From a bacterium (GTDB lineage Bacteria; Desulfobacterota; Desulfocorpusculales; Desulfocorpusculum), in the NCBI GenBank assembly GCA_037481695.1, contig JBBFLE010000001.1:502989-566988 (forward strand): DNA of 64,000 nt. The letters run 5' to 3'. The notes under the pieces were generated by a model. It saw nothing but the letters and a program-made list of their open reading frames with translations. It did not search any database and had not been told where the DNA came from. This document shows, piece by piece, positions 8,591 through 28,490 of this stretch. The position numbers and the translations under genes were made by a program. Position 1 is the stretch's first letter; each line of letters begins with the position of its first letter.

Positions 8591-9372
8591 TGTTGGGCCT
8601 TGGTAATGGCTGCCAGCATCATGGGCTTTAACCGCAACCCCTGATCTGATAAGAGCTAAGCTCTCCCCTGCCAGGCCTGTGTACACTTTAAGAAGTCCCT
8701 TCCATGCGTTTCACATTTTTGTTCTTGACAACCCGAGATCCTGTGGACTATGAAGTATTGACTTTTGGGCCATTCGTGATTCTTGTGGAATGGCTCCATC
8801 AGGGAAGTTGGCCCCGTCCTGTCCAGGGGATTACCAAGGTATATCAAGGAGAAGGGATGAGTGAAGATGGGGCCCTGATGGCAGCAAGACCGAAGGCCTC
8901 TTTCAAGGATCCACCAAGGCCTGCCTGGTGAGAAGCAGTCCGTGTCGGGCACCGTCGGTCTGAGAAAAGGCCCATCCAAAGAAGGGCATCCGAGCCTTGC
9001 TTCTGTCCCCCATCGTCACTGCCCATCGCCCTGAGATAGCCCCTTTTTATCTGAGGGGACTGGGACAGCGCCCCAGGCGCCTCGTCCCGGCCGGAAAATT
9101 GACTCACATCGTCGTTTCCTCTTTTTGACGGTCTTAACCAGACCCAGATGGAGGAGATGATGCTCTTCATGTTGTGTTGCCGCATCCTGGACTTTGTGAA
9201 GCCGGGAAAACACCCTTGTGCTTTGACTAAGCTAGGGTTTCTGTTCCAAAGAGGATACTTCCGTTCTTGGGTTTTAAGCGTGAACTTGTGGGAAAGGGCG
9301 GTCTTGCCCTCGCGGAACGCCTTTCGATTTTATGCACTTCAGGAACCACAGTGATTCTAAGGAGCTGAATTG
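8591..9372. other. Long intergenic region upstream of cas10
   Basis: About 780 bp carry no convincing gene on either strand; the open frames here lack ribosome sites and recognisable domains. It should contain the promoter of the csm operon, but I could not fix one with confidence. The last bases, AAGGAGCTGAATTG, are the ribosome site of cas10. Confidence 0.4.
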
Positions 9373-11892
9373 ATGTTGAAAGAAGATTTCACCAGGTTCG
9401 TCCTTGGAGCCCTGCTACACGATATTGGAAAATTCAAACAGAGGGCCAAATACGAGGAGGATCGCGGGAAAACTCACTCCGCGATAGGATACGAGTGGTT
9501 ATCCTCGCAATACGGCGAAGGGTTGATCGCGGCAGCAGCTCGAAATCACCACGGTAATGTATCTGAGACATGGGAGAGCAACCTCTCATTGATCATTTAT
9601 GAGGCAGATAACCTTGCCGCATCCGAGCGAAGGAGGTTCGATCCTTCCACGGATGTAGACAAATCATGGCATCAAGAAGTGCTTCTCGCCTCGGACTTTA
9701 GTCGAATAAGCCTGGACTCCGAAGCCCCCGATCTCCGAACTAAGCCGGAGATGAGATACTGGCCCCTCAAAGCCTTGGGTGGGTGGACTGTCCCCCAGGA
9801 GGACGACTCAGGCGGCTCTGCAGGCGTCTATCGAGAACTGTGGGAAGCTTTCTGCAATGACTTTGCCTGTCTTAAAGCCGCGAATAGGCACACGGACGTG
9901 GAGATCATGCTGCACCTGATGGAACGGTTTACCTCATACATCCCTTCTATCACCCTCCACATAACCGGAGCAACAGACCGTGACACCTTCAGGAAGCATC
10001 CAGATGTGTCGCTGTTCGACCACGCGCGGGTCACTGCCGCCTCTGCCAGTTGCCTTTACCTTTTTTACTACTCCCGCCTTCAGGATCGATGGGATCGAGA
10101 TGTCTTCAAAGACGAAATCACTGGTGGATGGGAAGATTCTTCTCAAGATCCCTTCCTCTTAATTGGTGGAGATCTGTCGGGCGTTCAGGACTTTATCTAC
10201 ACAATCTCGTCCAGGGGTGCACTCAAGGCGCTCAAGGGACGCTCTTTCTTCCTGGAGTTACTGACCGAGTACCTAGTGAGTAACCTCCTAGAAGAGTTGA
10301 GCCTGACCCGATGCAATGTTCTTTTCACAGGCGGTGGGCATTTCTACCTGCTCGCACCCAACACTGAGGATGCCAAGAACGGCCTCGACAGCGTCCGACG
10401 AGCAACCAACGATTACCTTTGGGATGCCTTTAATGGTGCATTGTCGTGTTGTATCGCTTATGTGCCCATGGGAAAAGCAGCCTTCCGGGATGCGACTCGG
10501 CACTGGGCGGCTCTGGGACAAGAACTCGAAACCATGAAGCGCAGAAAATGGGAGAAAGCCCTGGACAAGGTTCTGGGGCCGGCCGAGATGCCCCATGCTG
10601 ATTGCCTCACTGTAAGGTGCGAGGTTTGCGCGCGGGAGGATACGCCGCTGAAGTCAGTTAGGGGTGTGCTTATGTGCCCAAGCTGCCGGGAACAATTTTT
10701 CTTCGGCGAGGGCCTGCAAAAAGCGGCCAGGGAGGCTAACAAGCTCTTACGGGCCAAAGTGGGAATAGCGGTTTGGGACAAAAAACCCCAAACAGAAGGT
10801 GACGAAGTCCTAGCTATAGGCCTGGGCGAGAAACAAAGGTTTTACAAGCCCTTTGTGATTTACGACAGCCACAATTCCCTGCCAGGGACTAAGTGGACGT
10901 ACCGGCTTAACGATTGGGACAGTAGCGGCTACGCAGCCGAAGGTTCTCTTCCCCTCTTGGCAGGAATATTCCACGCAGGGGAGTTCGAGGACCTTGAGTC
11001 CCTCGTTGAGAGGGGCTATGGATGGGATAGGGCCGGGGTGCTTCGCATGGACGTTGACAGGCTCGGAAAGATATTTTCGTCTGGCCTGCCGCCTGGCGAC
11101 CGCACCTTCTCACGCATGGCATCTCTTTCGAGGCATTTCTCCCTTTTCTTCAAGTACCATCTCAACGGGATCTTGCACTTGGACAAAAAGGACGGATACG
11201 AGAATCTGGTACGGACACGGGTGGCGGAATCGGTTCGCGGGAGAGAACGTCTTTTGTCCTTGGTCTACTCCGGAGGCGATGATGTTTTCGTAATCGGACA
11301 TTGGTTGGACGTGTTGGAGGCAGCCTATGACATAGAGGAGGCTTTCAGCCTCATGACCTATAACCCCAACATTACCTTATCAGCAGGACTGGTTTTTGCA
11401 CCACCTCATCACCCGGTTTACAGATTCGCCAAAGACGCTGGAGAGGCCGAGGCCAAAGCCAAGAAAGGAGGGCGAAACTCTCTGACGGCATTCGGCCATA
11501 CCCTAAGGTGGCAAGATGCAAAGGATATGCGAACGATGCTTGTCGGAGAGATTTTACCTTTGCTGAAAAAGGAGCAAAGGGCATTGGGAACACCGGTAGG
11601 GTCTGTGTCCGTCGGATTTCTCCACAGAGTTTTGGCTTTGGTGAGCCCTTTTGTTACTCGAAATGAAAAAAAGACCGACCCGGCGTCACAGTTCTGGTTG
11701 CTGCCAAAGGTTGCCTACCTCACTGGTAGGGCCGCCCCTTCCAAAGAATTCCTCAAGGCGAGCGACGAAGCAAAGAAGGCCTGGATGGCCTTAAAAGACA
11801 GGCTCTTGCGCCAACCCGATTTACAGCACCTCACCAAGATAAACGGGGCCGTACTCTGGGCCCTGATGATGATGAGGAAAGGAGGGAAATAA
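9373..11892 (+). CDS. cas10: Type III-A CRISPR effector Cas10 (Csm1)
   Basis: The 839-residue large subunit of the Csm complex. The N-terminal HD nuclease domain is intact (LLHDIGKF, H16-D17; later ARNHHGN). The first palm-like domain is around residue 260 onward (LLIGGDLSGVQDFIY). A zinc ribbon C416-x2-C419 ... C435-x2-C438 follows. The second palm domain carries the cyclase motif GGDD at residues 634-637 (VYSGGDDVFVIG). Both activities, target-activated DNase and synthesis of cyclic oligoadenylates, are therefore predicted, and the two CARF nucleases downstream fit. I chose ATG 9373 with AAGGAG upstream rather than the adjacent TTG. It is the first gene of the operon and ends one base before csm2. 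Confidence 0.96.
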   Translation: MLKEDFTRFVLGALLHDIGKFKQRAKYEEDRGKTHSAIGYEWLSSQYGEGLIAAAARNHHGNVSETWESNLSLIIYEADNLAASERRRFDPSTDVDKSWHQEVLLASDFSRISLDSEAPDLRTKPEMRYWPLKALGGWTVPQEDDSGGSAGVYRELWEAFCNDFACLKAANRHTDVEIMLHLMERFTSYIPSITLHITGATDRDTFRKHPDVSLFDHARVTAASASCLYLFYYSRLQDRWDRDVFKDEITGGWEDSSQDPFLLIGGDLSGVQDFIYTISSRGALKALKGRSFFLELLTEYLVSNLLEELSLTRCNVLFTGGGHFYLLAPNTEDAKNGLDSVRRATNDYLWDAFNGALSCCIAYVPMGKAAFRDATRHWAALGQELETMKRRKWEKALDKVLGPAEMPHADCLTVRCEVCAREDTPLKSVRGVLMCPSCREQFFFGEGLQKAAREANKLLRAKVGIAVWDKKPQTEGDEVLAIGLGEKQRFYKPFVIYDSHNSLPGTKWTYRLNDWDSSGYAAEGSLPLLAGIFHAGEFEDLESLVERGYGWDRAGVLRMDVDRLGKIFSSGLPPGDRTFSRMASLSRHFSLFFKYHLNGILHLDKKDGYENLVRTRVAESVRGRERLLSLVYSGGDDVFVIGHWLDVLEAAYDIEEAFSLMTYNPNITLSAGLVFAPPHHPVYRFAKDAGEAEAKAKKGGRNSLTAFGHTLRWQDAKDMRTMLVGEILPLLKKEQRALGTPVGSVSVGFLHRVLALVSPFVTRNEKKTDPASQFWLLPKVAYLTGRAAPSKEFLKASDEAKKAWMALKDRLLRQPDLQHLTKINGAVLWALMMMRKGGK

Positions 11893-11893
11893 C

Positions 11894-12352
11894 ATGACAG
11901 CCATGGGAACCGGCGACTTCAAGACAGGGACCGGGGGCCGCGGCAAAGCCGAAAATGGCTCCCATGTGGACTGGACTGCTCAGCACGCCCGCGATCTCAA
12001 GGATCTCTCGACTATTGGAGCCGATAGAATAGTGGAGATTGCCGAGGCTGTGGGCAAACAGCTTTCCCCGAAGGGAATCAACTTGAAGATCAATCAGATC
12101 AGGCGGTTCCTGGACGAGGCCCGACAGATCGAACTTGAAGTCAAGAGGGGAGTTTTCCCTGCCGATAGAGTGGTCCTCCTACTCCCAAAACTGGCTTACG
12201 CCGCGGGGCGTGAGCAAAAGGTCAGAGATTTGATGAAGGTTCTAGACCCGGCCATACGTTCAGCTCGTGACTCGGCGGACAATTTCAAGAAGTTTTTGAG
12301 GTTGATAGAAGGCATAGTGGCGTACCATAGGTTTTACGGCGGGACAAACTAG
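11894..12352 (+). CDS. csm2: Csm complex small subunit Csm2
   Basis: The 152-residue all-helical small subunit of the type III-A complex. The diagnostic C-terminal part is clear: VVLLLPKLAYAAGREQKV and FKKFLRLIEGIVAYHRFYGG. The first 25 residues are Gly-rich and probably disordered. Csm2 is known to form the inner filament along the crRNA-target duplex. It starts one base after the cas10 stop, with AAAGGAGGG inside the end of cas10, so the two are probably translationally coupled. Confidence 0.93.
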   Translation: MTAMGTGDFKTGTGGRGKAENGSHVDWTAQHARDLKDLSTIGADRIVEIAEAVGKQLSPKGINLKINQIRRFLDEARQIELEVKRGVFPADRVVLLLPKLAYAAGREQKVRDLMKVLDPAIRSARDSADNFKKFLRLIEGIVAYHRFYGGTN

Positions 12353-12376
12353 AAGTGGTACTGGGGAGGATAAGCC

Positions 12377-13201
12377 ATGACTGATACCAATCAATATCGC
12401 AAGCTTTTGGGTAAAGTGGAACTTGTCGGAAATCTTGAGTGCCTAACTGGTTTGCATGTCGGTGCTTCTAAGGAAACTATGGAAATTGGAGCGCTTGACT
12501 CTCCTGTGGTCCGTGATCCGCTTACCCAGTGCCCTTACATACCCGGATCATCTCTCAAGGGAAAGCTTCGTGCTCTTCTCGAAAAGGCGGATCCAAATCT
12601 CATTCCGAATCGCCCAGGTGGAAGCGGAACGCGGCGACATGAGTGCGACGATTGGGAGCCCAAAGAAGGCAAGAGGGGCGTTCCCGGTGCGTTGCACTGT
12701 CCTGTCTGTCGCCTCTTTGGTTCCACGGGCCCTGGCGAAGGCAACAAAAATTATCCCGCCCGTCTCAAGGTCCGGGACCTGCATCTGCAGAACAAAGAGG
12801 AATTGGAAAAGATTGACACCGGATTGTATTTGACCGAGTGGAAATTCGAAAACGGAATAGATCGCATCACCTCCGCGGCCAATCCTCGCAACATAGAGCG
12901 GGTTCCACGCGGTGCCAGGTTCTCCTTTTCCATGGTTTACGACGTGGAGGACACCACTACCATGTCGGAAGACCTGGAAAACCTGGGTCTTGCCATTCGT
13001 CTTCTGCACGACGATTCGCTAGGAGGGCACGGCTCCAGAGGTTACGGTCAGGTCAGGTTAGAGTTCAGATGTCTCGAGGCCAAACGGATCGATCATTACC
13101 GCGGCGAAGGGGAAGCCCTGAGGAAAATAGAGCCGGGCGAGCTTGACAGCAAGACCATTGAAGAGCTCAAAGGATTCTTCTCTTCTGAAAACAGGGGGTG
13201 A
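12377..13201 (+). CDS. csm3: Csm complex backbone RAMP Csm3, target-RNA nuclease
   Basis: The 274-residue RAMP protein forms the Csm backbone and cuts target RNA at 6-nt intervals. The conserved N-terminus reads GLHVGASKETMEIGALD, then SPVVRDP and PYIPGSSLKGKLR. Asp41 aligns with the catalytic Asp33 of the Streptococcus thermophilus protein, so slicing activity should be intact. A Cys-containing insertion (CPVCRLFGS) and the Gly-rich loop GGHGSRGYGQVRL near the C-terminus are typical. GGGGAGG precedes the start. It is followed directly by csm4. Confidence 0.95.
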   Translation: MTDTNQYRKLLGKVELVGNLECLTGLHVGASKETMEIGALDSPVVRDPLTQCPYIPGSSLKGKLRALLEKADPNLIPNRPGGSGTRRHECDDWEPKEGKRGVPGALHCPVCRLFGSTGPGEGNKNYPARLKVRDLHLQNKEELEKIDTGLYLTEWKFENGIDRITSAANPRNIERVPRGARFSFSMVYDVEDTTTMSEDLENLGLAIRLLHDDSLGGHGSRGYGQVRLEFRCLEAKRIDHYRGEGEALRKIEPGELDSKTIEELKGFFSSENRG

Positions 13202-13206
13202 GCCCC

Positions 13207-14262
13207 ATGTCCGTGTACCTTTTCAGACTTCATTTCCTGGGCCCTGTCCACTTCGGGATGGCTGGCATAGACCTGGAAGCAACGCAGAGCACTCTTTCGT
13301 CTGACTCGCTCATTTCGGCAATTGTAAACGCATTCTTGCTGCTCGACGGACCGGAGGCTGCCGAAAAGGTCATTTCAGCCTTTTCATCTGATAAACCACC
13401 TTTTGTCCTGTCATCCCTTTTTCCATTCGGCCCGGACAAGGACAAGGCCGATCGCTATGCAGAAGCGCTGGTCCGCCCCTTGACTCCGCCTCCGGTTGGA
13501 GACTCGGAGACTCTTGGACGTTTCGGCAAGGACTTAAAGACCATCAATTACTTGCATCCTCAGGACTTTGCCGCCTGGATCTCGCAGCGACCCCTGGCAC
13601 CTCATGAGATCGAGTCTGTGGTATCCCGGGCCCGAGTTTTCACGGAGGGTTGGTGGAAACAGGAGACACGTCCTCGGGTAGCATTGGACAGAGAAAGCCA
13701 AAATAGCCCGGTCTGGTCCCAGGCAGCCACATGGTTTCAGAGAGAAGAGCGAGGCAAAAAGGGGGAAGTGCTAACTGTCGGATCAGGTCTTTACGGTCTG
13801 GTTCGTTTCGACGATGAGTCTTGGAAAGAAAGACTCGCCTCAGCCTTTCGCGTCCTGGGCGATACCGGCCTAGGGGGAGAGCGTACGTACGGCTTTGGCC
13901 TTTTCAAGTTCGGAGGATTTGAAACTCCCGGGGATCACTGGCGGGAGATCTTAAGCGGTGAAGGGAGGTTCAAGGTCTTGCTTTCCCTTTATTATCCAAG
14001 GCAAGAGGAGAGGAAATCTCTAGCCCAATCCCTGGTCGCTTGGGACTTCGTGGAGAAACGAGGATACGTTGTGAGCGGCCGCAACGCAACCACCATAAAG
14101 CGAAAGCGCGTTCGTATGCTCGTCGAAGGTAGCGTTTGTCGCCAGCCATTGAGAGGCGCGATGGTTGATGTAACACCAGAAAACGCCGTGGGCCTAGGGA
14201 TACCTCATCGCGTGTTTAGATGCGGTTTGGCATTTCTCGTCCCAGATGGAGAACGGATATGA
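13207..14262 (+). CDS. csm4: Csm complex 5'-handle-binding RAMP Csm4
   Basis: The 351-residue RAMP protein of the Csm4 family holds the 5' tag of the crRNA and contacts Cas10. N-terminal strand VYLFRLHFLGPVHFG, the segment TLSSDSLISAIVNAF, and the Gly-rich loop DTGLGGERTYGFGLFKFG (about residues 220-240) are diagnostic. I use ATG 13207, placed behind AGGGGGTGAG; a GTG at 13198 overlapping the csm3 stop is the alternative. It overlaps csm5 by ATGA. Confidence 0.93.
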   Translation: MSVYLFRLHFLGPVHFGMAGIDLEATQSTLSSDSLISAIVNAFLLLDGPEAAEKVISAFSSDKPPFVLSSLFPFGPDKDKADRYAEALVRPLTPPPVGDSETLGRFGKDLKTINYLHPQDFAAWISQRPLAPHEIESVVSRARVFTEGWWKQETRPRVALDRESQNSPVWSQAATWFQREERGKKGEVLTVGSGLYGLVRFDDESWKERLASAFRVLGDTGLGGERTYGFGLFKFGGFETPGDHWREILSGEGRFKVLLSLYYPRQEERKSLAQSLVAWDFVEKRGYVVSGRNATTIKRKRVRMLVEGSVCRQPLRGAMVDVTPENAVGLGIPHRVFRCGLAFLVPDGERI

Positions 14263-15854
14263 GTCTCGAAGCACTTATCCAGTCAGCCCCAAAAAAAGCT
14301 GACTTGAGAAACTCGCTATGCATGGACTTACACGTCATCAGCCCGATCCACATCGGCACAAGGGAAGGCCGTCTTGGGGCCACCGAGTTCGTTGCAGGTG
14401 GTGGAAAGGTGTACCTGATAGATGAGGACAGGCTCGGCCGTTTTCTGGTAAGTAAAAACCTCGTGGACGCATTCGTGCTAGAGGTTCGAAAAGGGCCCTT
14501 CCAGATGGCGCAGTTCCTTCAAAAAAATGCGAAACTCCGCATCCCAGAAGATCTACATATGGTCTGCTCCATGTCCATCCCTGGAGGAGACCCGAGCATG
14601 CAGGACTTCCGTCCGTTTACGAGGGATGGATCAGGGGCGATTTACATTCCAGGCACTTCACTCAAAGGGGTATTCAGGACAGCCATACTGTATCGACTGC
14701 TTAATCAGGATCTAGAGTTTCGCAAAAGTTCCAATTCGAGGATTGGACAGGATCCCGAGGGAGAAATAAACAAGAGGAGAAAATTCTATTCCGAGCAGTG
14801 GTTACAAAAAGAGCATTTGGAAAGCTTCGACTTGCCCGGAGGCAAAAAAGGGAGCCCAAACGTAGACATTCTGAGGTGTCTGACCGTCAGAGACGCTTAT
14901 CCCGTGGGACCTGTTCGCACCCAGGTGGTTCCAATCAAGTTCCTGTCACGTCTTTCTGATGGAACTTTTTACTGGAGCCAGGACAAGAAGCATTTTAAGG
15001 ATAAGGACCTTTCCATATGGGTTGAGTGTGTCACCGAGGGGACCTTTCGCCTTGAAATGCTCTGGGCTGCCGATCTTTACAAGGCTTTTATGAGTCATAA
15101 CAAAGGGGTAGCGTTTCCAGTTTCCAACCTGCAGGATGTCCTGGATGCTGTGCGAGAGATGAACGAAGCTCTGGTGAAGCACGAGTTGGCCTTTTACGGA
15201 TCAGCAACGGGGGGTGGGAATAGCGATGCACCTGGAGCAGCCAAAGCTTTGCTAGAATGGTATAAAACCCTCGGAAATCAAACCCTTCGCATTGGCTTCG
15301 GTTCGGGGATGCTTTCCACTACCGTGGGCTTGGCACTTGAAGAGAGCGTGCGGCAAAAGATTCGGGATGCCTGTGGAAGTGGACGACGCCCCGGGGATCC
15401 GGCACCCAAATCGAGAAGGGTCTGGAGACGAACGGAAAGCATTACTTTGCCTATGGGCTGGTTGAAACTGGCAAAGGCGGATCCGAAGTTAGGGCCCATC
15501 CCACCTGATCTGAGCTCGCTCTCCCGTGAGATTGGGAAGCCCACGGAGCAGACCGGGCATCCAGATGCACAAAGAGAAGGGCGGACGCAAGAGCTTCCCC
15601 CAGTGGAGCGTGTTAAGGTTGCTCCTTCGAAAGAGGTGTGGGAGCAGGCGGAAATTAGATGGGATCGAGGAAAGGACGAAGTCGCAGCCTTACGGGAAGG
15701 CAAGAAGGCGATCTGCAGGGGAAACGATCTCGATGAGGACAGTCGGCAGTTCATGCAACAACAGAAAAAGGGCAAACCATTCAAAGCGCGGGTCGTAGTG
15801 GAGGTACTGAGCGATAGTTACCGGAAGATCCTCAAGCTCGAGCCTACAGAGTGA
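14259..15854 (+). CDS. csm5: Csm complex RAMP Csm5 (3' end cap)
   Basis: The 531-residue RAMP protein caps the crRNA 3' end of the Csm complex. Motifs: LHVISPIHIGTREG at the N-terminus, VYLIDEDRLGRFL, then YIPGTSLKGVFRTAILYRLL (around residue 130), and a loop IGFGSGMLSTTVGLAL. It is longer than many Csm5 proteins because of a charged C-terminal extension (from about residue 420). The start ATG overlaps the csm4 stop as ATGA, giving translational coupling. Confidence 0.93.
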   Translation: MSLEALIQSAPKKADLRNSLCMDLHVISPIHIGTREGRLGATEFVAGGGKVYLIDEDRLGRFLVSKNLVDAFVLEVRKGPFQMAQFLQKNAKLRIPEDLHMVCSMSIPGGDPSMQDFRPFTRDGSGAIYIPGTSLKGVFRTAILYRLLNQDLEFRKSSNSRIGQDPEGEINKRRKFYSEQWLQKEHLESFDLPGGKKGSPNVDILRCLTVRDAYPVGPVRTQVVPIKFLSRLSDGTFYWSQDKKHFKDKDLSIWVECVTEGTFRLEMLWAADLYKAFMSHNKGVAFPVSNLQDVLDAVREMNEALVKHELAFYGSATGGGNSDAPGAAKALLEWYKTLGNQTLRIGFGSGMLSTTVGLALEESVRQKIRDACGSGRRPGDPAPKSRRVWRRTESITLPMGWLKLAKADPKLGPIPPDLSSLSREIGKPTEQTGHPDAQREGRTQELPPVERVKVAPSKEVWEQAEIRWDRGKDEVAALREGKKAICRGNDLDEDSRQFMQQQKKGKPFKARVVVEVLSDSYRKILKLEPTE

Positions 15855-15933
15855 ACTATGTGCTTTCCACGGGCTTCCTCTGGGGGTCCATTCATGCACT
15901 GCCATTATGCATTGCCAGTGACATGGTGAACCC

Positions 15934-17205
15934 ATGAAGACTGTCCTCATTTGCACGGTGGGTGGGTCCCATCAGCCGATTGTCCAAAGCATAACGCGAA
16001 ACAAGCCAGACTTCGTGCACTTTATCTGCTCAGAGGACAGCGGGAAGGCAAAGGGGAGCTACACCCAGGTGGTTGACCCAGGCAAGGTGCTAAAGAGCGA
16101 CCCCAACCTAAAAGATCCGGACCTTCCAAACATCGTGGAGATCACTGGTCTTGAAGAGGATAATTACAGAGTACATCGAATCCGGGCCTTCGATGATCTG
16201 AACGAGTGCTATCTCTTTGCCCTCAAGTTGATAGAAGAGATCCATGAGATGAACCCCGATGCCCGGATAATAGCCGATTACACAGGCGGCACGAAAAGCA
16301 TGACGGCTGGTCTGGCGGCAGCCGCTCTGGACGACGGACGATGCGAGATTCAACTGGTGACCGGGCTTCGGCAAAATCTTAACAAGGTTTCCGACAGGAC
16401 AGAGTTTGTTCGTCCTGTTAGGGTTTGGGACACCCAAGTCACCAGGCGCATGAAGGTTGCAAAGGAACTATTGTCACGCTTTGACTATGCGGGGGCAGCA
16501 AGCATCCTAGAAGATGCAGCCGCACGCTTTGCCAGTGATAACACCATCGAGACGCTGCAGCGCTGGCTTGCCCTTTGCCGGGCCTTTGACTCTTGGGACA
16601 GCTTCGATCATGCCACGGCCAGAAATCTTCTTCAGCCTTTCCGGAAGAATTTCGTGCACCACGCTCGTTTTCTCGACGCCATTGTGAAGGGCAAGGGGGC
16701 CCACGGATTCGAGTGGGTTGAGGACTTGCTCCTTAACTCAGATCGGCGGGCTGTGCAGGGACGGTTCGACGATGCCGTCGGGCGCTTGTACAGAGCGCTA
16801 GAGCTGACCGCACAGGTCTGGTTGCGCCTGCGCCACGGTATCGACACAGGCTCTGTGGAGCTCGATAAGGTGCCTGACTCCGTAAAAGAGAGCGTCAAGA
16901 AGCACAGCGATGAGAAGGGAATCATCAGAATTGGCCTAGTGCAAGCCTGGGAGGTCATCGCAGCCTGCGCTGACGACCCACTTTGCTTACTCTTCAAGGA
17001 AAAGCAAGGCGTGCTGCTGGACTTCCTGAGGCTACGCAACTATTCCCTGTTTGCCCACGGCACCACTCCTATTGGGGAGAGGCAGTACCGTGAACACGCC
17101 CCCCTTGTCCAGAGCTTCATCCGTTGTTCGGTCGAAAAAGCCGTGATGAGCTTGCGAAAGAAGAGCGCATCATCCCCACCGCAGTTCCCGACAGAATGGG
17201 ATTGA
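15934..17205 (+). CDS. CARF-HEPN ribonuclease, TIGR02710 / Csm6-Csx1 type
   Basis: The 423-residue accessory nuclease has an N-terminal CARF sensor domain (MKTVLICTVGGSHQPIV; ligand-loop motif ADYTGGTKSM at residues 114-123) and a C-terminal HEPN domain with R368-x6-H375 (RNYSLFAH), within the R-x4-6-H RNase pattern. Such proteins are known to be activated by cyclic oligoadenylate made by Cas10 and then degrade RNA nonspecifically. It lies 79 bp after csm5 in the same direction. The ribosome site is weak, so expression may be low. Which ring size it senses cannot be read from sequence. Confidence 0.9.
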   Translation: MKTVLICTVGGSHQPIVQSITRNKPDFVHFICSEDSGKAKGSYTQVVDPGKVLKSDPNLKDPDLPNIVEITGLEEDNYRVHRIRAFDDLNECYLFALKLIEEIHEMNPDARIIADYTGGTKSMTAGLAAAALDDGRCEIQLVTGLRQNLNKVSDRTEFVRPVRVWDTQVTRRMKVAKELLSRFDYAGAASILEDAAARFASDNTIETLQRWLALCRAFDSWDSFDHATARNLLQPFRKNFVHHARFLDAIVKGKGAHGFEWVEDLLLNSDRRAVQGRFDDAVGRLYRALELTAQVWLRLRHGIDTGSVELDKVPDSVKESVKKHSDEKGIIRIGLVQAWEVIAACADDPLCLLFKEKQGVLLDFLRLRNYSLFAHGTTPIGERQYREHAPLVQSFIRCSVEKAVMSLRKKSASSPPQFPTEWD

Positions 17206-20124: not shown

Positions 20125-20152
20125 TGAATGAGAGGCTGAAGTCTCTCATTCA
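20125..20152. terminator. Bidirectional hairpin between csx2-like and cas6 genes
   Basis: TGAATGAGAG and CTCTCATTCA form a perfect 10-bp stem between the two convergent genes. Its right arm overlaps the stop codon of the minus-strand cas6 gene. Confidence 0.6.
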
Positions 20153-21058
20153 CATGTGCTGGCCTTCTGCTGAGATGATCTCATAGCGCCCCAGCCCCAG
20201 TGCCGTCCCCTTCCCTACCCCCAGATCCCTTCCCAGTGCCAAAAGCTCCCCAAAGGGCTGCAAATCACCCTCAAGAAGCATTTCTCCCAGCAAGCCGCTT
20301 AGAGCGACCGTAGTATTCTGTCTTCTGGAGCAGTGATGCCGCTCAACCCATCTAAGTCCCAAAGAATCAGACGCTACCTTTGAAGCCATTTCCAAGAGTC
20401 CTTGGAAGGAAAGGGGTTCTCCTTTTCCATAATATTTGTCCAGTAATTTGGCCCTTCGGCAAAGGGCTTCCACGAGCCCCCTGAAGCTCAGTTTCGTCTG
20501 AGGCCTGCCCAGGCTGAAGATTCTCCCCGGCCTTATCCACCTCAGCTTTGTAACCCCTTTCAATACCAGTGGCTCTGGACGTCTAGGCAAGACCGCTCTC
20601 TCCAATGCATCCTGCTCTCCATCATAAAATGCCTTCCATTCCTTCCCGGTCCATTCCTCTCCTAATATTATCTTGAAAGGATGAGCTTTGTTCTTACCCA
20701 TCAGATTCAAGGCAAAAAGCCAGTAAGGCAATCTGTCCACCCAGGGATCGAGAAGTGTTAGCTCTAGCTCGAACTTCCCTGATCCATTACTTTGCTGCGG
20801 GAGCAAAAGCGAGAAAGGCAAAGGAATCTGAGTGCCTCCCCAATCTCCCTGGACGCCTCTCAAATCTGGTTTAAACAAGCCCGTATAAATACACTTCTGT
20901 AACAAGAAGCATTCGCCGCATTCCTGCCTTGGAAGGATGCAGGCAACCTTTTTCAGGGCCATTTCCAGATCATCCCTCCAATGAAGGGGTGATCTGATGC
21001 GTCTTTCCTCTTCCAACCACTGTGCCCTGAACCTGAGCCTTGCATAAAGTAACATCAC
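20150..21058 (-). CDS. cas6: Cas6-like pre-crRNA endoribonuclease, copy B
   Basis: The 302-residue RAMP protein matches the Cas6 C-terminal family (PF10040 type). It has an N-terminal LLYARLRFRAQW strand, a four-Cys segment (ILPRQECGECFLLQKCIY) near residue 40-58, and the C-terminal Gly-rich loop LGVGKGTALGLGRYEI. Cas6 cuts within CRISPR repeats to give crRNAs with an 8-nt tag, here predicted to be ATTGCGAC. It overlaps the upstream Cas6-like gene by 4 bp (ATGA), so both come from one message. Which copy is catalytic cannot be decided from sequence. Confidence 0.82.
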   Translation of the reverse strand: MMLLYARLRFRAQWLEEERRIRSPLHWRDDLEMALKKVACILPRQECGECFLLQKCIYTGLFKPDLRGVQGDWGGTQIPLPFSLLLPQQSNGSGKFELELTLLDPWVDRLPYWLFALNLMGKNKAHPFKIILGEEWTGKEWKAFYDGEQDALERAVLPRRPEPLVLKGVTKLRWIRPGRIFSLGRPQTKLSFRGLVEALCRRAKLLDKYYGKGEPLSFQGLLEMASKVASDSLGLRWVERHHCSRRQNTTVALSGLLGEMLLEGDLQPFGELLALGRDLGVGKGTALGLGRYEIISAEGQHM

Positions 21059-21990
21059 CCTTCGTCCAGCAACAGCTTTCCACAGCCTACAACCGTGTTC
21101 TTTCCCACATGAATGAACCTTCCCAGTCTAAGCAATGCCCCAGCCTCCTGGTTGTAATCCTTGACCTCCAGTTTGCCGACCCATCCACCAATGTTGATCC
21201 TCTGCCCTTGAGTCTTAGAGGGTCTTTCCAGAACAACCCATCGCACCTCACCGGCCCCTGTTTGAAGCCAGGGCTTCTTCTTCCAGCAGGACTCACTTCT
21301 GCCCTCTTCAGAGCTACCGTAAAAATAATGGAGACCTGCTATCCTCCTCTCAAGGGCATCTATTATGAGCCTGCCATCCGGGCGGCCTTTGATCCTTCCT
21401 TCCTCCTTGAATTTGCAAGGAGTGGCCAGACGGATGCTCCTTATTGGTTTGCCCCCACCGACTAGATCAGCGGCATCCCAGCTCCTGAGGCCATTTATTC
21501 CCTTCTCCGCCCAAGCCCTAGGATCCGAAGCCTCTGACGGCGGCTCGGGAAATTCCAGCTCAAACCTGGATCTTTTAGTTCCCAGGACTCCTCTGTGGCC
21601 GCCTTGGACTATTGCAGCCATGACAAATGGGAGCCATTTCACCCCTGAGCCAAAAACGTTCAAAGAAAACTCCATCCGATCTCCCCTGGAGAAGCATGTC
21701 CTCGGGTCAATCGCTGGTTCTGTAACAAAAGGTGTAGGAGCGCTCTTACCCTTTGACAAATGGGGTTTGAAGAAGTTGGCGTAAGGGCATTGCGAAACAA
21801 GGCTGCAGCTGAAACACGCTTCTTCCCCCTTAGGGCACCACCGCCTCAACATGCTGGTCCCAAGAAGTCCCCTGATGGTGGAGCCCTTGTAGGAAGGCAG
21901 CAAGGCATCATCTAGGAGTCTAATTTTGAATTCAAGTTTACTGATTCTTAGACCCGTGTGTGGGAAATCCATTTCTTTTTCCAAAGACAT
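21055..21990 (-). CDS. cas6: Cas6-like pre-crRNA endoribonuclease, copy A
   Basis: The 311-residue RAMP protein has the same layout as copy B: LRISKLEFKIRLLDDALLPSYKGSTIRGLLG at the N-terminus, a four-Cys segment (CPKGEEACFSCSLVSQCPYANFFKP), and the Gly-rich loop LGRFIHVGKNTVVGCGKLLL. The two copies are clearly paralogous but far apart. I chose ATG 21990, which has GAAGGAG upstream; earlier ATGs at 22005 and 22035 are less well placed. It is divergent from the TPR gene, with a 183-bp shared promoter region. Confidence 0.83.
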   Translation of the reverse strand: MSLEKEMDFPHTGLRISKLEFKIRLLDDALLPSYKGSTIRGLLGTSMLRRWCPKGEEACFSCSLVSQCPYANFFKPHLSKGKSAPTPFVTEPAIDPRTCFSRGDRMEFSLNVFGSGVKWLPFVMAAIVQGGHRGVLGTKRSRFELEFPEPPSEASDPRAWAEKGINGLRSWDAADLVGGGKPIRSIRLATPCKFKEEGRIKGRPDGRLIIDALERRIAGLHYFYGSSEEGRSESCWKKKPWLQTGAGEVRWVVLERPSKTQGQRINIGGWVGKLEVKDYNQEAGALLRLGRFIHVGKNTVVGCGKLLLDEG

Positions 21991-22173
21991 AGTTGCTCCT
22001 TCCATTTTCACGCTTTCTTTGTTGCCCCTATTCATGGAAAACGGATTTGCTCCTTTGTGTTCCGAGTTTTTTCCACCGGAAAATTCTCTGCTTTCTTCGT
22101 TTCATTTTTTTGTCAGGGCCAAACCGTCCAGGCTTGGTACTACAGAAAGAGAAACAGAAAGGAGTCCCAACCC

Positions 22174-23499
22174 ATGGCCGAGCCAGCAAGACCTCACCTT
22201 AAGCTGGTCACCCCCGAGGACACCTCCCCTCCTCCTGTCACCCCTGGGGAGATCCTCCACCACATGCAGCTCATGAAGGCCAGGTGTGCCTGGGAGGAAA
22301 TCATCAGGACCTTTCACCCTCTGAATGAAAAATTCCCCGACCTCCTCCAATGTTCTGAAAGATCTCTCATCATGCAAGACATAGCCTTTGCACTTTCCCA
22401 GAGCAAAAGGTTCTCCGAGGCAATCCAAGTTCTTCTTGAGTGCCACGAACTGGACCCCCAGAGTTATCATGTGGCCTCTGCTCTGGGTTTCAATTTTTAT
22501 GATGCACTCATGTGTGAAAAGGCAAGGGAAATCCGGCTGGGAGAGGAAAAGACCCGCTATGTTGAGGAAGCTGAGCGGTGGCTCGGGGTGGCAGAAACGC
22601 TCTATCCAAAAAACGTTGTAGATTTTTACCGTCATGGGATGCTCTATCACCACATCCTGGAACGGAAGGACCACAAGGCTTGCCCTCTTTTCGAGAAGGC
22701 CATCGCCAATTGGGAATCCCTCTCCAGGGAGGAGCAGGAGCGTCGCCACAAGGACCAGAAGAACTATATCAAAGCCCTGTACCACCTTGCCAAGGCTCGA
22801 ATGCGCTTAGGTCGCTATGCTGAAGCCGAACAGGCTGTACGCCAGTGTATAGATAATGACCAGAAGACTCAATACGAGGAGCCTGTGTACAAGTTCTATC
22901 TCTTGGGAAGGATACTTCTGGAGGCGGGCAAAGAGGAAGAGGCCTTGGGACATCTCAAAACAGCAGCCCACACGCCAACAAAAAGGCCCAAAGATTACGT
23001 TTTCTACACTTTGGCTGTTTGCCTTGTGAGGCTGGAAAGGTGGGAGGAGGCTTTGGAGTGCCTGGGTAATATCCCACCTCGTTTTCTTAAGCCGCACATG
23101 AAAAGGCTGGCGGGTTGGATTCACTATAGGCTTGGCCACGCGGAAAAGGCCGCTTCTTGTTTGGAACAGGCCTTAAGTGAAGACAGAAAAGGTTGCCACC
23201 TCACCCTGGTGGTAATGGGAAGAATCTTCGAAGATCTGGAAAATTGGGCACAAGCCATCAATTGCTTTCGCAGGGCTAACGAGTTCAAGCGAAAGGAGTT
23301 TTTAACAGACCATGAAGAAGCTCTCTTAGGTGAGGGCCGTTGTTTGCTTAAGACAGGAGACACGGAGAAAGCCTCCGAGGTTCTTCGGAGGGTCATTCTC
23401 TTGAATGAGAGGAACCAAGAGGCTCGAGCATTGCTTAAGGAGATAACAGGTGAAAATGAGCCTCCTTGGGGCAAAGCCAGTGGAGAAATACCGTTTTAA
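22174..23499 (+). CDS. TPR-repeat protein of the CRISPR adaptation module
   Basis: The 441-residue soluble protein is built of tetratricopeptide-like helical repeats from about residue 45 to 420, for example ALYHLAKARMRLGRYAEAEQAV, YTLAVCLVRLERWEEALECL and GWIHYRLGHAEKAASCLEQAL. It has no signal peptide. It stands 70 bp upstream of the primase-polymerase gene, which itself starts with TPRs, so it may be a scaffold or partner of that enzyme. The start ATG has AAAGGAG upstream, and the far longer open frame upstream of it is phenylalanine-rich and not credible. Confidence 0.8.
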   Translation: MAEPARPHLKLVTPEDTSPPPVTPGEILHHMQLMKARCAWEEIIRTFHPLNEKFPDLLQCSERSLIMQDIAFALSQSKRFSEAIQVLLECHELDPQSYHVASALGFNFYDALMCEKAREIRLGEEKTRYVEEAERWLGVAETLYPKNVVDFYRHGMLYHHILERKDHKACPLFEKAIANWESLSREEQERRHKDQKNYIKALYHLAKARMRLGRYAEAEQAVRQCIDNDQKTQYEEPVYKFYLLGRILLEAGKEEEALGHLKTAAHTPTKRPKDYVFYTLAVCLVRLERWEEALECLGNIPPRFLKPHMKRLAGWIHYRLGHAEKAASCLEQALSEDRKGCHLTLVVMGRIFEDLENWAQAINCFRRANEFKRKEFLTDHEEALLGEGRCLLKTGDTEKASEVLRRVILLNERNQEARALLKEITGENEPPWGKASGEIPF

Positions 23500-23569
23500 T
23501 GCCGCTTGGAGTTCTTCATTGCTTCAGATCTAAGGTGGCAAGCAAAGAACACAATGGGGGAGAGACTTA

Positions 23570-25150
23570 ATGAATATAACAGAGATCTCCTCTTCTCGAC
23601 CGATAGTCTTTCTCTTGAAAAAAGCTGAACATGCTTTTTTTCAAGGTGATCACCAGAGGGCTGCCTTTCTTCTGGACAATGTGAGAGCTAAAAGAGAAGC
23701 CTCTCCACAGCAGTGGATGGCGTGTGGGCGTTTGAACGAGATGTTGGGAAGACCTGAAGAAGCCTTGAGTGACTATGCCCAGGCTTTGAAACTCGTGCCG
23801 GGTAACACTGAAATAATATTGAGGCGGGCCAGGATCCTTTTGGAGTTGGGAAGGGTCGGGGAAGCCAAACGGGAGGTAAAAGCTACGCTGGCTAGAGGCG
23901 TCACAGTGGATCAGGTGAAACTCTTCCTGGGGGATCTGCTCAAGAGACCTTGCCCTCCCAATGACCTTTCCCCTGTGGAAATTGACCGGGCCTTCTATCA
24001 GAGCAAAGGGCGAAAAAAGACCATAGACAGATTCCTAAAGTTGTTCAGAGGAAGGCCTGGGGCTTATGCCAGGCAGTGGTTCGATCCCAGGAGCGGTAAA
24101 TCAGGATATTTCCCTGTCTTGGAACCCCTTACACCAGAGGTTGTGGAGGCGCACCTTCAGGGCAAAATCACTGTTGGGGTCTATCTGTTGGACCAAGCGG
24201 CCAGAGTTTGCTTTGCGGCACTGGACTTGGACCTAGGAAGAGACACAATAGCCGAGATAATGAAGGATCCTGGTGGGCAAAAAAGCATGGCTTCGGCCAT
24301 GAGAGATTTGATGGCAAAGATCTTAAAGGCCTCGGCCGAGCTTGGGCTTCCGGTGGCATTCGAAAGAAGCGGTTACAAGGGAGTGCACGCCTGGTATTTC
24401 TTCGAGACTCCTGTGCCGGCCTGGGCTGCAAAAACCCTCATGATGCGGCTCGGGGAAGCGGTTTCCCCACCACCGCACGGAATACAATTGGAGGTTTTTC
24501 CAAAACAGGTGACATTGTCGGGAAAAGGTTATGGAAACTTGATTAAGCTACCTTTGGGTGTTCACAGGGTCACTGGGAAGAAAAGTATTTTCTTGGACGA
24601 GAAAGGATATCCGGTGGAGGACTCTCTGAACTACCTTATGGAGATAAAAACCATACCGGCCGAACTCGTGGTCTCTTTGGCAAGCAAATTGGGCGCCGGG
24701 GAGAAAGGCACTGTTGTGCTTTTGCCAGGTACCGGCATCCCCAGGCAGGTTGAAGTGAAGGCCAGCAGAGCTCCCCAGAGCAGTGTGAGCAACAGCAGCA
24801 AGGAGGCCTACGCCAGAATATTGGAAGGCTGTGCCATGATCCGATACTTGGTTAGAAAGGCTCGCGAGTTCAAACATCTCAGTTTTGACGAGCGCAAAGT
24901 GGTCTTGGGAGTGTTAGGACACCTTCCAGGAGGTCAGAAACTTGTACACCACGTAATATCCCGTTGCGCTGATTACGACCCACAGATCACCGGACATTTC
25001 ATATCTCGAATGTCCAGGTCTCCCCTCGGATGCAGGAACATAAGAAGGAGGCTTTTTTATTTACAACACACCAGATGTAGCTGCCAGTTCAATCTTCGTG
25101 GCAAGGGTTACCCTACCCCTTTGCTTCTTGTGCAACAGGAGGGGCAATGA
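23570..25150 (+). CDS. CRISPR-associated primase-polymerase (CAPP), TPR-AEP-Cys
   Basis: The 526-residue protein has N-terminal TPR helices (about 10-130), then an archaeo-eukaryotic primase domain with the metal motif ALDLDLG (D219, D221), the SxxxxxH-type motif S267-GYKGV-H273 and the third motif LEVFPKQ followed by GNLIKLPLGVHR. The C-terminal part has four cysteines (C421, C488, C503, C505), an arrangement suggestive of the Fe-S domain of primase large subunits. CAPPs are known to be encoded with cas1-cas2 in some type III systems and can prime and extend DNA and RNA, supporting spacer acquisition. Here it directly precedes cas1 and cas2. Confidence 0.88.
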   Translation: MNITEISSSRPIVFLLKKAEHAFFQGDHQRAAFLLDNVRAKREASPQQWMACGRLNEMLGRPEEALSDYAQALKLVPGNTEIILRRARILLELGRVGEAKREVKATLARGVTVDQVKLFLGDLLKRPCPPNDLSPVEIDRAFYQSKGRKKTIDRFLKLFRGRPGAYARQWFDPRSGKSGYFPVLEPLTPEVVEAHLQGKITVGVYLLDQAARVCFAALDLDLGRDTIAEIMKDPGGQKSMASAMRDLMAKILKASAELGLPVAFERSGYKGVHAWYFFETPVPAWAAKTLMMRLGEAVSPPPHGIQLEVFPKQVTLSGKGYGNLIKLPLGVHRVTGKKSIFLDEKGYPVEDSLNYLMEIKTIPAELVVSLASKLGAGEKGTVVLLPGTGIPRQVEVKASRAPQSSVSNSSKEAYARILEGCAMIRYLVRKAREFKHLSFDERKVVLGVLGHLPGGQKLVHHVISRCADYDPQITGHFISRMSRSPLGCRNIRRRLFYLQHTRCSCQFNLRGKGYPTPLLLVQQEGQ

Positions 25151-25190
25151 TCCCTGATACAATGTGATCGTCATAGGTAAAGGAGATAAG

Positions 25191-26237
25191 ATGCACACGG
25201 CTTATATTGTCGAGCAGGGCTGCCATCTGCACAAAGACGGGAACAGACTGGTGGTGCGAAGAGGAAAGGAAATCCTGCGGGAGCTCCTACTGGAAGGTCT
25301 TCAGCAACTGGTGCTCATGGGGAACATAATACTCTCCCCGCCTGTCATGGATGTGCTCATCAAGAACCGGGTTGACACGGTTTTCCTAACGCAAAAGGGA
25401 CGGTTCAGGGGACGTCTCATGACTTCCTACACCAAAAACGTCACACTGAGGCAGGCTCAATATACTAAATTACAGGACGCAGAGTTCGTTCGGCGGGTTG
25501 CCTCAACCATAGTAGCCGGAAAGTTGCAAAACATGTATCTCCTGCTTCTCAGGTACAATCGGAGGTTAAGGGATGAGGGCATAGGCTCTGCTGCCGCATC
25601 CATCCGAGCTTTGAGGGAGAGGCTAGAAGAGGCTAATAGCTTGGAGGTTATACGCGGTATAGAGGGTGCAGCCTCCAGAAACTACTTTGGTGTGTTTGGC
25701 CGTCTTCTCACAGCTGAGGGTATGGAGTTCAGGGGCCGTAATCGAAGACCGCCCTTGGATCCGGTAAATGCCCTTCTTTCATTTGGTTACACAATGCTGG
25801 CCAACCTGCTGGAGAACCAGATCAATGTCGTGGGACTGGATCCATATCTTGGCGCTCTTCATGAGACAGAGTACGGCCGTCCCTCCCTGGTGTGCGATCT
25901 AATGGAAGAGTACCGTCCTGTTTTCACTGACACTCTGGTTATAACCTTGGTGAATCGGAAAGTAATCGGGAGGCAGGACTTCGTATACAGAGATGTGCCA
26001 GACACTTCCTACCAGACCGAGGAAGAACTTAAAGAAAAACGCCCGGTAGAGATGAAACCCGAGGTGATGAAGGGCTTCATAGAGATCTTTGAACGAAAGC
26101 TGGAGACTCGGATCCAAGATCCTGAAACTGGCAACCAGGTAACTTATAGGTATCTGGTGGAGCTGCAAGTACGGAGGTTCGCGAGGCTCATTTTGGGAGA
26201 GGTTGAGGGCTACGTCCCTTTTGAATGGAGCAGATGA
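25191..26237 (+). CDS. cas1: CRISPR integrase Cas1
   Basis: The 348-residue integrase has all three metal-binding residues: E158 (GIEGAASRNYFG), H224 (YLGALHETEYGRPS) and E239 with D236 (VCDLMEEYRP). The N-terminal beta domain and C-terminal helical domain are complete, and there is no fused reverse transcriptase. ATG 25191 has AAAGGAGATAAG immediately upstream. It overlaps cas2 by 4 bp. Confidence 0.96.
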   Translation: MHTAYIVEQGCHLHKDGNRLVVRRGKEILRELLLEGLQQLVLMGNIILSPPVMDVLIKNRVDTVFLTQKGRFRGRLMTSYTKNVTLRQAQYTKLQDAEFVRRVASTIVAGKLQNMYLLLLRYNRRLRDEGIGSAAASIRALRERLEEANSLEVIRGIEGAASRNYFGVFGRLLTAEGMEFRGRNRRPPLDPVNALLSFGYTMLANLLENQINVVGLDPYLGALHETEYGRPSLVCDLMEEYRPVFTDTLVITLVNRKVIGRQDFVYRDVPDTSYQTEEELKEKRPVEMKPEVMKGFIEIFERKLETRIQDPETGNQVTYRYLVELQVRRFARLILGEVEGYVPFEWSR

Positions 26238-26515
26238 TGTTTTGTGTTATATGTTTTGACATAGCAGATGACAAAGTCCGCTACAGGGTGGTCAAGGAGC
26301 TTAAGGCCGTTGCGCACAGGGTACAGAAGTCGGTCTTTGAGTGCCCGGATCTTCAGGAAAAAAGGTTTCTGAAGTTAAAGGCTCGTTTGGAGAAGCTCAT
26401 AGATCTTTCCTACGATACCGTAAGATATTACTTTCTATGCCAGGGATGTGTAGCAAGGACCGAGATTTCCGGAACAGGGGTACTGACCGAAGATGAATCC
26501 TTTATTGTAGTTTGA
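26234..26515 (+). CDS. cas2: CRISPR adaptation protein Cas2
   Basis: The 93-residue ferredoxin-like protein has the family hallmarks CFDIADDKVRYRVVKEL and RVQKSVFECPDL. It bridges Cas1 dimers in the spacer-integration complex. The ATG at 26234 overlaps the cas1 stop as ATGA; ATG 26225 is an alternative that would add three residues. It is followed by the leader and array. Confidence 0.94.
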   Translation: MMFCVICFDIADDKVRYRVVKELKAVAHRVQKSVFECPDLQEKRFLKLKARLEKLIDLSYDTVRYYFLCQGCVARTEISGTGVLTEDESFIVV

Positions 26516-26854
26516 CGCACGAGGGTTGTCCGAGCTCAAGTTCTGGATTGGGAGTTCCAGATTACTTGACAGATAAATAGGTAGCATCTAGAGTGACTAT
26601 CGAGGTAGCCATGGGTGCATTAGTAAACCTGTGGTGGATTTTTCAACATTGAATTATCTAGTTGATTTAATTGAGTTTTACCTAAAAGGGCTCCGAGAGG
26701 TTTACTAATGACAAAAAACTGTGTATTTTTAGTAAGTTATCCTATGTGTCCTACAAATTTGTATGATAAGTTTGACCTTGTCTGGGGCAAAATTGGGAGG
26801 TTTACTAATCGCCGCCTCCAAACCCGCACCAGCACTGAGCTCGTACGGGGTGCT
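26516..26854 (+). promoter_or_regulatory. CRISPR leader
   Basis: This 339-bp stretch between cas2 and the first repeat has no gene and is AT-rich in its middle part. It carries a 12-bp motif AGGTTTACTAAT at 26698-26709 and 26798-26809, and the inverse ATTAGTAAACCT at 26619-26630. The two direct copies are exactly 100 bp apart. The position next to cas1-cas2 and the first repeat identifies it as the leader. Confidence 0.75.
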
Positions 26855-27403
26855 GTCCGAAGATAGCCCCGATCACAAAGGGGATTGCGACCAGATCCCT
26901 CACGCAGATTCACTTTCCAATCCATCCTGTCCGAAGATAGCCCCGATCACAAAGGGGATTGCGACTTAGCTAGCCCACTAGTCTCTAGTGGGCTAGCTTT
27001 GTGTCCGAAGATAGCCCCGATCACAAAGGGGATTGCGACCTGCCACAGAATCCACAGGGATTTTGAGTTACTGGAGTCCGAAGATAGCCCCGATCACAAA
27101 GGGGATTGCGACATGGGAGCCCTAGATCGGAGGAGGGACCATTCTCTTGAGTCCGAAGATAGCCCCGATCACAAAGGGGATTGCGACAAGGGGTGCTCAT
27201 AAAAAGACAACCCCCGCCCCAGTCCGAAGATAGCCCCGATCACAAAGGGGATTGCGACCCCTTGCCTGTTTTCTTTCCTCCACCCAAGATCTCGTCCGAA
27301 GATAGCCCCGATCACAAAGGGGATTGCGACAAGGATCTGATCTTCAAAATTATCAGGCAAGTCTGCGTCCGAAGATAGCCCCGATCACAAAGGGGATTGC
27401 GAC
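26855..27403 (+). CRISPR. Type III-A CRISPR array, 8 repeats, 7 spacers
   Basis: Eight identical 37-bp repeats begin GTCCGAAGATAGCCCC and end GGGGATTGCGAC, at 26855, 26929, 27003, 27076, 27151, 27222, 27294 and 27367. Spacers are 37, 37, 36, 38, 34, 35 and 36 bp. The repeat can form a short GCCCC/GGGG stem, and its last 8 nt ATTGCGAC resemble known type III 5' tags. Spacer 2 (26966-27002) is a near-perfect hairpin. The array is transcribed from the leader on the left and runs into a satellite with truncated repeats on the right. Confidence 0.97.
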
Positions 27404-27629
27404 CCTGGGGCTTCGCCCGCACAGAGCACGGAGCACAGAGCACAGGGTAAAAACCGAACTACTGGCGGGCTGCTCCACCGGCTCATTTCCTGGCGCACGC
27501 ACCGGCACCTCGCTCCGGATCCTGGCCAAAGGCCTTCGGGAAACTTCCTACACGAACCTTGGCCCGTATGCTCTGTGCCCTGTGCCCTGTGCCGCTTTTG
27601 CTGGCCCCGATCACAAAGGGGATTGCGAC
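27404..27629 (+). repeat. Satellite unit 1 ending in truncated CRISPR repeat
   Basis: This 226-bp unit directly follows the last full repeat. It begins CTGGGGCTTCGCCC, carries GCACAGAGCACGGAGCACAG on the left and an opposed CTCTGTGCCCTGTGCC on the right, and ends in the last 26 bp of the CRISPR repeat (27604-27629). The first 11 bp of that repeat are missing. Open frames through it are repeats of low-complexity reading and not credible genes. Confidence 0.85.
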
Positions 27630-27888
27630 CCTGGGGCTTCGCCCGCACAGAGCACGGAGCACAGAGCACAGGGTAAAGACCAAACTACTGGCGGGCTCGT
27701 CCACCGGCTCATTCCCTGGCGCACGCACCGGCACCTCGCTCCGGATCCTGGCCAAAGGCCTTCAGGAAACTTCTTACACGAACCTTGGTCCGTATGCTCT
27801 GTGCTATATGCCCCTTTTGGTCGCCCCGTGCCCTGTGCTCTGTGCCGCTTCTGCTAGCCCTGTGCTGCCTTTCTCGGCCCCGATCACA
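27630..27888 (+). repeat. Satellite unit 2, degenerate right end
   Basis: This is a longer copy of unit 1 with an extra segment (TATATGCCCCTTTTGGTCGC and a second GCTTCTGCTAGCCC). It ends with only 12 bp of the CRISPR repeat (GCCCCGATCACA, 27877-27888) before diverging into the sequence upstream of the Cys-rich gene. Confidence 0.8.
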
Positions 27889-27985
27889 GAGATCATTAGG
27901 ACCGGAGTTCCTGGTAAACCATGCGAGGAAAGGATAAGTCAATTTAGACAAATTTCTTTGATTCCATTACGCAAGGAGGTGTGAG

Positions 27986-28471
27986 ATGAGGGGTCTGGTC
28001 GTTTTCTTGATGGTTACAGGATTGGTGGTGGGCTCTGTAGCAATCTTACCCTTAGGCCAGGCAGCTAGCAGGAACCCCGAGTGCGTCCAGGAAGCTCAAG
28101 ACCAATACAGGGAGTGCATAGCCGTCTGTCGCGAGACCATGCAGGTGGAAAAGGACCTTTGTCGGAGTGTGGACCATGAGTGCGCTGAAAGCTGTAGAGA
28201 AGCCTTCATCAACTGTATTGGACCTCATATAGCGGCGCTTGAAACCTGTAAGGACACCTGCAACGCTGAAAGACAGCAGGCTGTCCAGCAGTGTAGAAAT
28301 CAACACGCTTCCAACCCGGCCTCTTTGGACGATTGTGTCGACCAGGCCCAGGTCCAGGCTTTCATGTGCAGAGATCAGTGCCGGGAACAGACTCAGCTAC
28401 GTGCCTCTCTAATCCAATGCAGGCGGCAGCTCAGATCCTGCATCCAGGCCTGCCCTACAGACACTCAGTAA
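27986..28471 (+). CDS. Secreted cysteine-rich helical protein
   Basis: The 161-residue protein has a signal peptide (VVFLMVTGLVVGSVAILPLGQAA) and a mature part with 16 cysteines. Ten of them form five C-x3-C pairs: CIAVC, CAESC, CKDTC, CRDQC and CIQAC, spaced along amphipathic helices rich in Gln, Glu and Arg, like helix-hairpin C-x3-C proteins. Disulfide-bonded periplasmic helices or a metal-binding role are both possible; I do not recognise the family. A strong AAGGAGGTGTGAG ribosome site precedes the ATG. The gene is embedded inside the CRISPR-derived satellite, between unit 2 and the next copies. Confidence 0.8.
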   Translation: MRGLVVFLMVTGLVVGSVAILPLGQAASRNPECVQEAQDQYRECIAVCRETMQVEKDLCRSVDHECAESCREAFINCIGPHIAALETCKDTCNAERQQAVQQCRNQHASNPASLDDCVDQAQVQAFMCRDQCREQTQLRASLIQCRRQLRSCIQACPTDTQ

Positions 28472-28490
28472 AATCTCTAAGGTAGAGCCG

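Follow-up and report, generated by a model that had tools for sequence, protein, structure and literature searches.

A stand-alone TPR protein family accompanies CAPP, Cas1 and Cas2 in CRISPR loci of Desulfobacterota

Introduction

For most CRISPR systems it is still an open question which polymerase synthesises or repairs the spacers that are acquired. The closest described proteins are the CAPPs, which, according to the available portions of Zabrady et al. 2021 (PMC8211822), combine a TPR and an AEP domain with a PriCT-like C-terminal domain in which cysteines are conserved. They are shown there to act as primases and polymerases, to displace strands and to bind Cas1 directly; prespacer synthesis and post-integration repair are the roles proposed for them. 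A review likens the CAPP C-terminal domain to Pri2/PriX (PMC10345425, in the part available), and a figure legend of a 2023 discovery paper (PMC10910872) places AEP and PrimPol among adaptation-linked genes, with which there may be overlap. Here we describe a CAPP locus of a Desulfocorpusculum genome in which a further gene, for a stand-alone TPR protein, precedes the CAPP gene. The analysis covers a 64,000-nucleotide stretch of DNA (the window), the genomes of 395 members of its phylum and a motif scan of 84,980 species.

Results

Four genes of the window, for a TPR protein, a CAPP, Cas1 and Cas2, lie on the + strand with short gaps at 22174-26515, as the earlier note on this DNA had described. 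The stand-alone TPR gene (22174..23499, 441 aa) has AAGGAG directly 5' of its ATG and is followed, after 70 nt, by the gene for a type A1 CAPP (23570..25150, 526 aa). The Cas1 integrase gene (25191..26237, 348 aa) has a revised start: the listed GTG at 25164 was rejected in favour of the ATG at 25191, which has AAAGGAG upstream and is the most likely start. Cas1 matches its Pfam family at 3.2e-89 and has all of its catalytic residues, E167, H233 and D245 (numbered from the 25164 start). The Cas2 gene (26225..26515; Pfam 3.5e-21) overlaps that of Cas1.

A complete III-A effector operon lies beside this block, as does a CRISPR array. The operon (9370..17205, + strand) encodes Cas10/Csm1, Csm2, Csm3, Csm4, Csm5 and a Csm6-type CARF-HEPN protein, and the GGDD motif is kept in Cas10/Csm1. 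Since Cas10/Csm1 and Csm2 to Csm5 were all found, the subtype is, by predicted gene content, III-A, in agreement with the earlier assignment. A nucleotidyltransferase/HEPN pair, Csx20 and a TM1812-type CARF protein are encoded 3' of the operon; the pair, which is toxin-antitoxin-like, sits within the CRISPR locus at 17402-18144. Two adjacent, tandem Cas6-family genes (20150-21058 and 21055-22035, - strand) diverge from the TPR gene. No Ago gene was seen among the genes of the window selected for Pfam searches.

The array (26850..27408, + strand) lies 3' of Cas2 and has eight full 37-nt repeats at a spacing of 71-75 nt. Past these clean repeats, at 27409-29460, the last 26 bases of the repeat alternate with an element of about 200 bases whose inverted ends are of the AGCACAGAGCACAGGG type, as if the element had been inserted into repeats. 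Near-full copies of it are confined to this place and to the array that immediately precedes the window. That second array (G000 C1:501335-502559), on the other flank of the III-A locus, has the same repeat, with 15 matches to its last 26 bases. The genome has a further CRISPR locus (L110:8645-11849, on G000 C7), with its own Cas6 and Cas1 (402 aa); its repeat region differs from that of the window and it gave no CAPP match. A single-sequence search of genome contigs with the CAPP found no relative.

The CAPP scores 360.7 bits against the NCBIfam type A1 model NF040561 (cut-off 200, residues 27-524), is named adaptation polymerase by PADLOC, and matches Pfam AEP-TOTE at 6.7e-45 and TPR_19 at 1.5e-10 (residues 60-110). 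Its domains are a TPR region (about 10-123), an AEP primase-polymerase (about 146-377) and a four-cysteine C-terminal domain (about 408-526). A putative break in the gene, an in-match TGA, was rejected, as the match only overruns the gene's own stop codon at 25148-25150. Among solved structures, the AEP domain of the Marinitoga CAPP is its nearest relative (phmmer 6.1e-32). The predicted structure (mean pLDDT 86, pTM 0.55) places the AEP domain on 7nqf_B, from the Marinitoga CAPP, with Z 31.9 and an rmsd of 1.5 A over 219 residues (32% identity), and its N-terminus (about 6-132) matches TPR folds in a fold search. Both catalytic motifs are present, DxD as D219-L220-D221 (codons 24224..24232, + strand) and SxxxxxH as S267-G-Y-K-G-V-H273 (codons 24368..24388, + strand). 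The protein is thus, by profile and motif, a member of CAPP type A1 predicted to be catalytically intact. The earlier note had read it in this way from its motifs and had held that the lack of an AEP fold would count against the reading; the model has that fold. CAPPs were also said to occur in a minority of systems, and type A1 CAPPs over the curated cut-off were indeed found in 49 of the 395 phylum genomes.

The C-terminal domain had been credited with four cysteines. It has five (421, 466, 488, 503 and 505), and four of these (421, 488, 503 and 505) form the family-conserved set, encoded at 24830..25084 (+ strand), a span that also includes Cys466. We compared 47 of the 49 CAPP rows, leaving aside the N-terminal piece of L082, whose CAPP gene is broken, and L109, whose CAPP is cut by a contig end before the C-terminus. 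C421, C488 and C505 are invariant (47/47), and in 46 of the 47 a fourth cysteine is either C431 (17 rows) or C503 (29 rows), never both; L079, the exception, has a cysteine at another position. Most other TPR-partnered CAPPs have C431 in place of C503, and C466 is found in 20 of the 47 domains. A mobile ligand, with the count staying at four or more, is the pattern expected of a metal or cluster site. The alternation of the fourth cysteine thus argues for a four-cysteine site, for zinc and iron-sulphur alike, in which C421, C488 and C505 together with C503 (or C431) would bind either zinc or an iron-sulphur cluster, which may shape a Pri2-like domain.

That the cysteines form a structural zinc site and not an iron-sulphur cluster is close to an even proposition in our judgement, if slightly short of one. 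C-x-C pairs are common in zinc sites, cysteines 503 and 505 form such a pair, and the site is held by three fixed cysteines and a movable one. Pri2, on the other hand, carries an iron-sulphur cluster. The available part of the review cuts both ways, as the CAPP C-terminal domain is modelled there as a Pri2/PriX analogue, while human PrimPol is said to use a zinc finger (PMC10345425). In our searches, a C-terminal domain profile run against PDB sequences found no Pri2/PriL and only 1dvo, at an E value of 1.2 (a chance match). A fold search with the whole CAPP gave AEP and TPR structures, with no Pri2/PriL among the matches listed, which mostly covered the TPR and AEP parts.

The type A1 cut-off is also passed by a sister clade of CAPPs without the catalytic motifs that the window CAPP has. 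Fifteen CAPP rows are without both DxD aspartates and the histidine, and keep the cysteines. They form one clade with full support in a tree of 66 rows (47 of the 49 aligned rows, the L082 pieces being omitted, plus 19 from loci of the 84,980-species scan); the structure-based alignment held 41 of the 49 rows, without the two pieces of L082 and without L109, L085, L086, L091, L098 and L100. A sixteenth motif-less CAPP (L108, genome G292) has a cut C-terminal domain that runs into a cut Cas1. There, one open frame (L108:9134-11224) joins the motif-less CAPP to a Cas1 without its N-terminus, by a deletion or an assembly join. The sixteen loci (L064, L080, L085, L086, L088, L091, L094-L098, L100, L103, L104, L106 and L108) span 11 group-coded families.

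All 13 uncut motif-less modules have two Cas2 genes; the other three of the 16 loci are cut by contig ends. Among the 33 motif-bearing loci, which include the window and L082, none has two: 31 have one and two have none (L071, which also lacks Cas1, and L109, which is cut). Within a locus the two Cas2 proteins share 35-48% identity, and the nearest relative of each is a copy in the same position at another locus. Cas1 of the two-Cas2 modules has the catalytic E and H in 13 of 13 aligned rows and the D in 12, with one gap. Each of the two traits changes a single time on the tree, so that the association counts as one evolutionary event and not as 13 independent ones. At the level of its aligned residues, the clade shows that a CAPP can persist, cysteines included, without the polymerase residues, and suggests that part of the conserved role of CAPP may be architectural.

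The stand-alone TPR protein had been put forward as an unrecognised partner of the CAPP. PADLOC already models its family: the window protein scores 305.3 bits (residues 27-407) against PDLC01172, 'TPR repeats containing protein', an entry that names no function or partner. As a partner it remains a candidate. Matches of at least 166 bits number 21, in 20 of the 395 genomes, and the next best scores 32 bits. All 20 genomes, spread over 12 group-coded families, are among the 49 with CAPP, and in 20 of 20 the TPR gene immediately precedes CAPP, with both on one strand (in G348 the TPR gene is cut by a contig end). The observation is far beyond chance, as the curated-model scores lie well over their cut-off and the TPR-CAPP pair recurs in 20 of the 395 genomes. 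The reverse does not hold: 12 of the 49 CAPP genomes have a catalytically intact CAPP and no strong TPR match. With so many intact CAPPs lacking it, the TPR protein would be dispensable for CAPP function in general.

The scan of 84,980 species gave 31 TPR loci, all deltaproteobacterial (Desulfobacterota-type), seven of which coincide with contigs of the 395-genome set. CAPP shares a stretch with the TPR gene in 27 of the 31 and follows it immediately in 24; as the loci were retrieved by a TPR query, they show how often TPR has CAPP and not the reverse. Gene order is reshuffled in L124, L136 and L140, where TPR, CAPP, Cas1 and Cas2 are all kept. In L133 the TPR gene is cut by a contig end and a CAPP remnant lies on the same contig, in L141 only a C-terminal CAPP remnant is left, between TPR and Cas1, and in L132 CAPP is on a different contig of the same genome. 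In L139, with TPR near a contig end, no CAPP was found anywhere in the genome. A separate observation concerns L071 (9862-13273; genome G294), which has TPR, CAPP and a second TPR copy that is broken, and where no Cas1 or Cas2 was found on the 18.9-kb stretch. No TPR relative was confirmed on viral contigs.

The TPR protein matches TPR repeats in Pfam and is predicted to be an all-helical superhelix (pLDDT 92.0). A fold search returned generic TPR superhelices, O-GlcNAc transferase being the best, and named no function. An alignment of 19 of the 20 gathered TPR proteins (the broken second copy in L071 was omitted, and a partial TPR in L066 fell under the inclusion limit) has 25 invariant columns at a mean column identity of 37%. 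Conservation is highest in the helices at 149-161 (FYRxGML) and 192-211 (HxxxKNxxKxLY). From the occurrence of the protein, the confident model and these conservation peaks, we infer a dedicated scaffold; its partnership with CAPP rests on co-occurrence and co-inheritance.

TPR proteins are generic scaffolds and regulators, and CARF proteins, Csx20 and Csm6 are encoded near the TPR gene in the window and in many relatives. The protein could on this basis serve the type III locus as a regulator or chaperone, for example in Csm6/cyclic oligoadenylate signalling, and only share a promoter with CAPP. We consider this unlikely, as TPR tracks CAPP rather than the genes for effector or CARF proteins: a strong match was found in none of the 346 phylum genomes without a type A1 CAPP over the cut-off, and TPR is retained in modules with other neighbours.

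Across 33 modules, distance matrices correlated at r 0.876 for TPR and CAPP, 0.886 for TPR and Cas1 and 0.847 for CAPP and Cas1, values reached in 0 of 1000 permutations; part of this correlation could come from shared species history alone. Judged by these distances, TPR and Cas1 show equally tight co-inheritance with CAPP, and by sequence the four genes are inherited as a unit. In the CAPP tree, the TPR-partnered CAPPs make up one side of a starred branch (99), together with L020, where the gene upstream of CAPP is cut off by a contig end. Within this group the window CAPP and L107 are deep-branching and distant, and their 36% identity to each other is the highest for the window CAPP. Co-inheritance within an operon would be expected of a non-interacting passenger too. 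Even so, a neutral passenger kept by linkage is very improbable, for although most loci are a single operon and one genome (G294) has the broken second copy, the protein is kept in 12 group-coded families with 25 invariant columns at 37% mean identity and is retained despite shuffled gene order.

Discussion

Our preferred reading is that TPR, CAPP, Cas1 and Cas2 would work as a module that acquires spacers for a type III-A CRISPR system. CAPP would prime and fill in DNA, giving double-stranded prespacers, repairing gapped repeats after Cas1-Cas2 integration, or both, a role like that proposed for characterised CAPPs. The TPR protein would be a dedicated scaffold that tethers CAPP to the prespacer or to Cas1-Cas2 by way of its TPR or C-terminal domain. 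Taken as a whole, with acquisition module, fill-in by CAPP, TPR scaffold and a four-cysteine zinc or iron-sulphur site, we regard this as moderately probable.

A more far-reaching form, which we offer tentatively and hold to be rather less probable than its opposite, makes the TPR protein an obligate subunit of a TPR-CAPP-Cas1-Cas2 complex for acquisition that is distinct and belongs to Desulfobacterota. The oldest role of CAPP would then be architectural, through its TPR and four-cysteine domain, and not catalytic; the TPR-partnered branch would have kept the polymerase and gained the TPR protein, and the sister clade would have lost the residues and gained a paralogous Cas2. If confirmed, a motif-less clade with the cysteine domain, an intact Cas1 and a doubled Cas2 would give CAPPs a function besides DNA synthesis. 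It is also a warning that not every protein named primase-polymerase by the current model is a polymerase. For the window itself, a CAPP module with a specific helper offers a compact, testable set of four proteins.

Like the iron-sulphur domain of Pri2/PriL, the C-terminal domain of CAPP is the helical end of a primase and contains four cysteines. Unlike in eukaryotic and archaeal Pri2/PriL, it is fused to the catalytic chain, and the cysteine spacing of Pri2 differs from that of CAPP. The closer comparison is with the Marinitoga CAPP, of the CAPP-TPR type (CAPP_A; PDB 7nqd, 7nqe, 7nqf, 7p9j and 7qaz), which shares with the window CAPP the TPR-AEP-CTD order, the conserved C-terminal cysteines and operonic Cas1 and Cas2. 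By its predicted features, an N-terminal TPR, an AEP with DxD and H, C-terminal cysteines and a Cas1/Cas2 operon, the window CAPP belongs to this type. The locus is accordingly less new than the earlier note supposed, as TPR-AEP-CTD CAPPs, their cysteines, the operon with Cas1 and Cas2 and primase activity are already in the available text of Zabrady et al. (PMC8211822). The open-access literature, which leaves most subscription papers outside and was available in part, gave nothing on a stand-alone TPR partner or on two-Cas2 CAPP modules. Two results extend the literature examined: the stand-alone TPR protein as a family that its distribution ties specifically to CAPP, and the C-terminal site of three invariant cysteines with a fourth at alternating positions. 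The Marinitoga operon has been published as CAPP-Cas1-Cas2-Ago, with no stand-alone TPR gene mentioned in the portion available, whereas the window module has one. Thus the locus is, on comparison of its genes, a known kind of CAPP acquisition module, and its distinguishing feature is a putative specific TPR partner.
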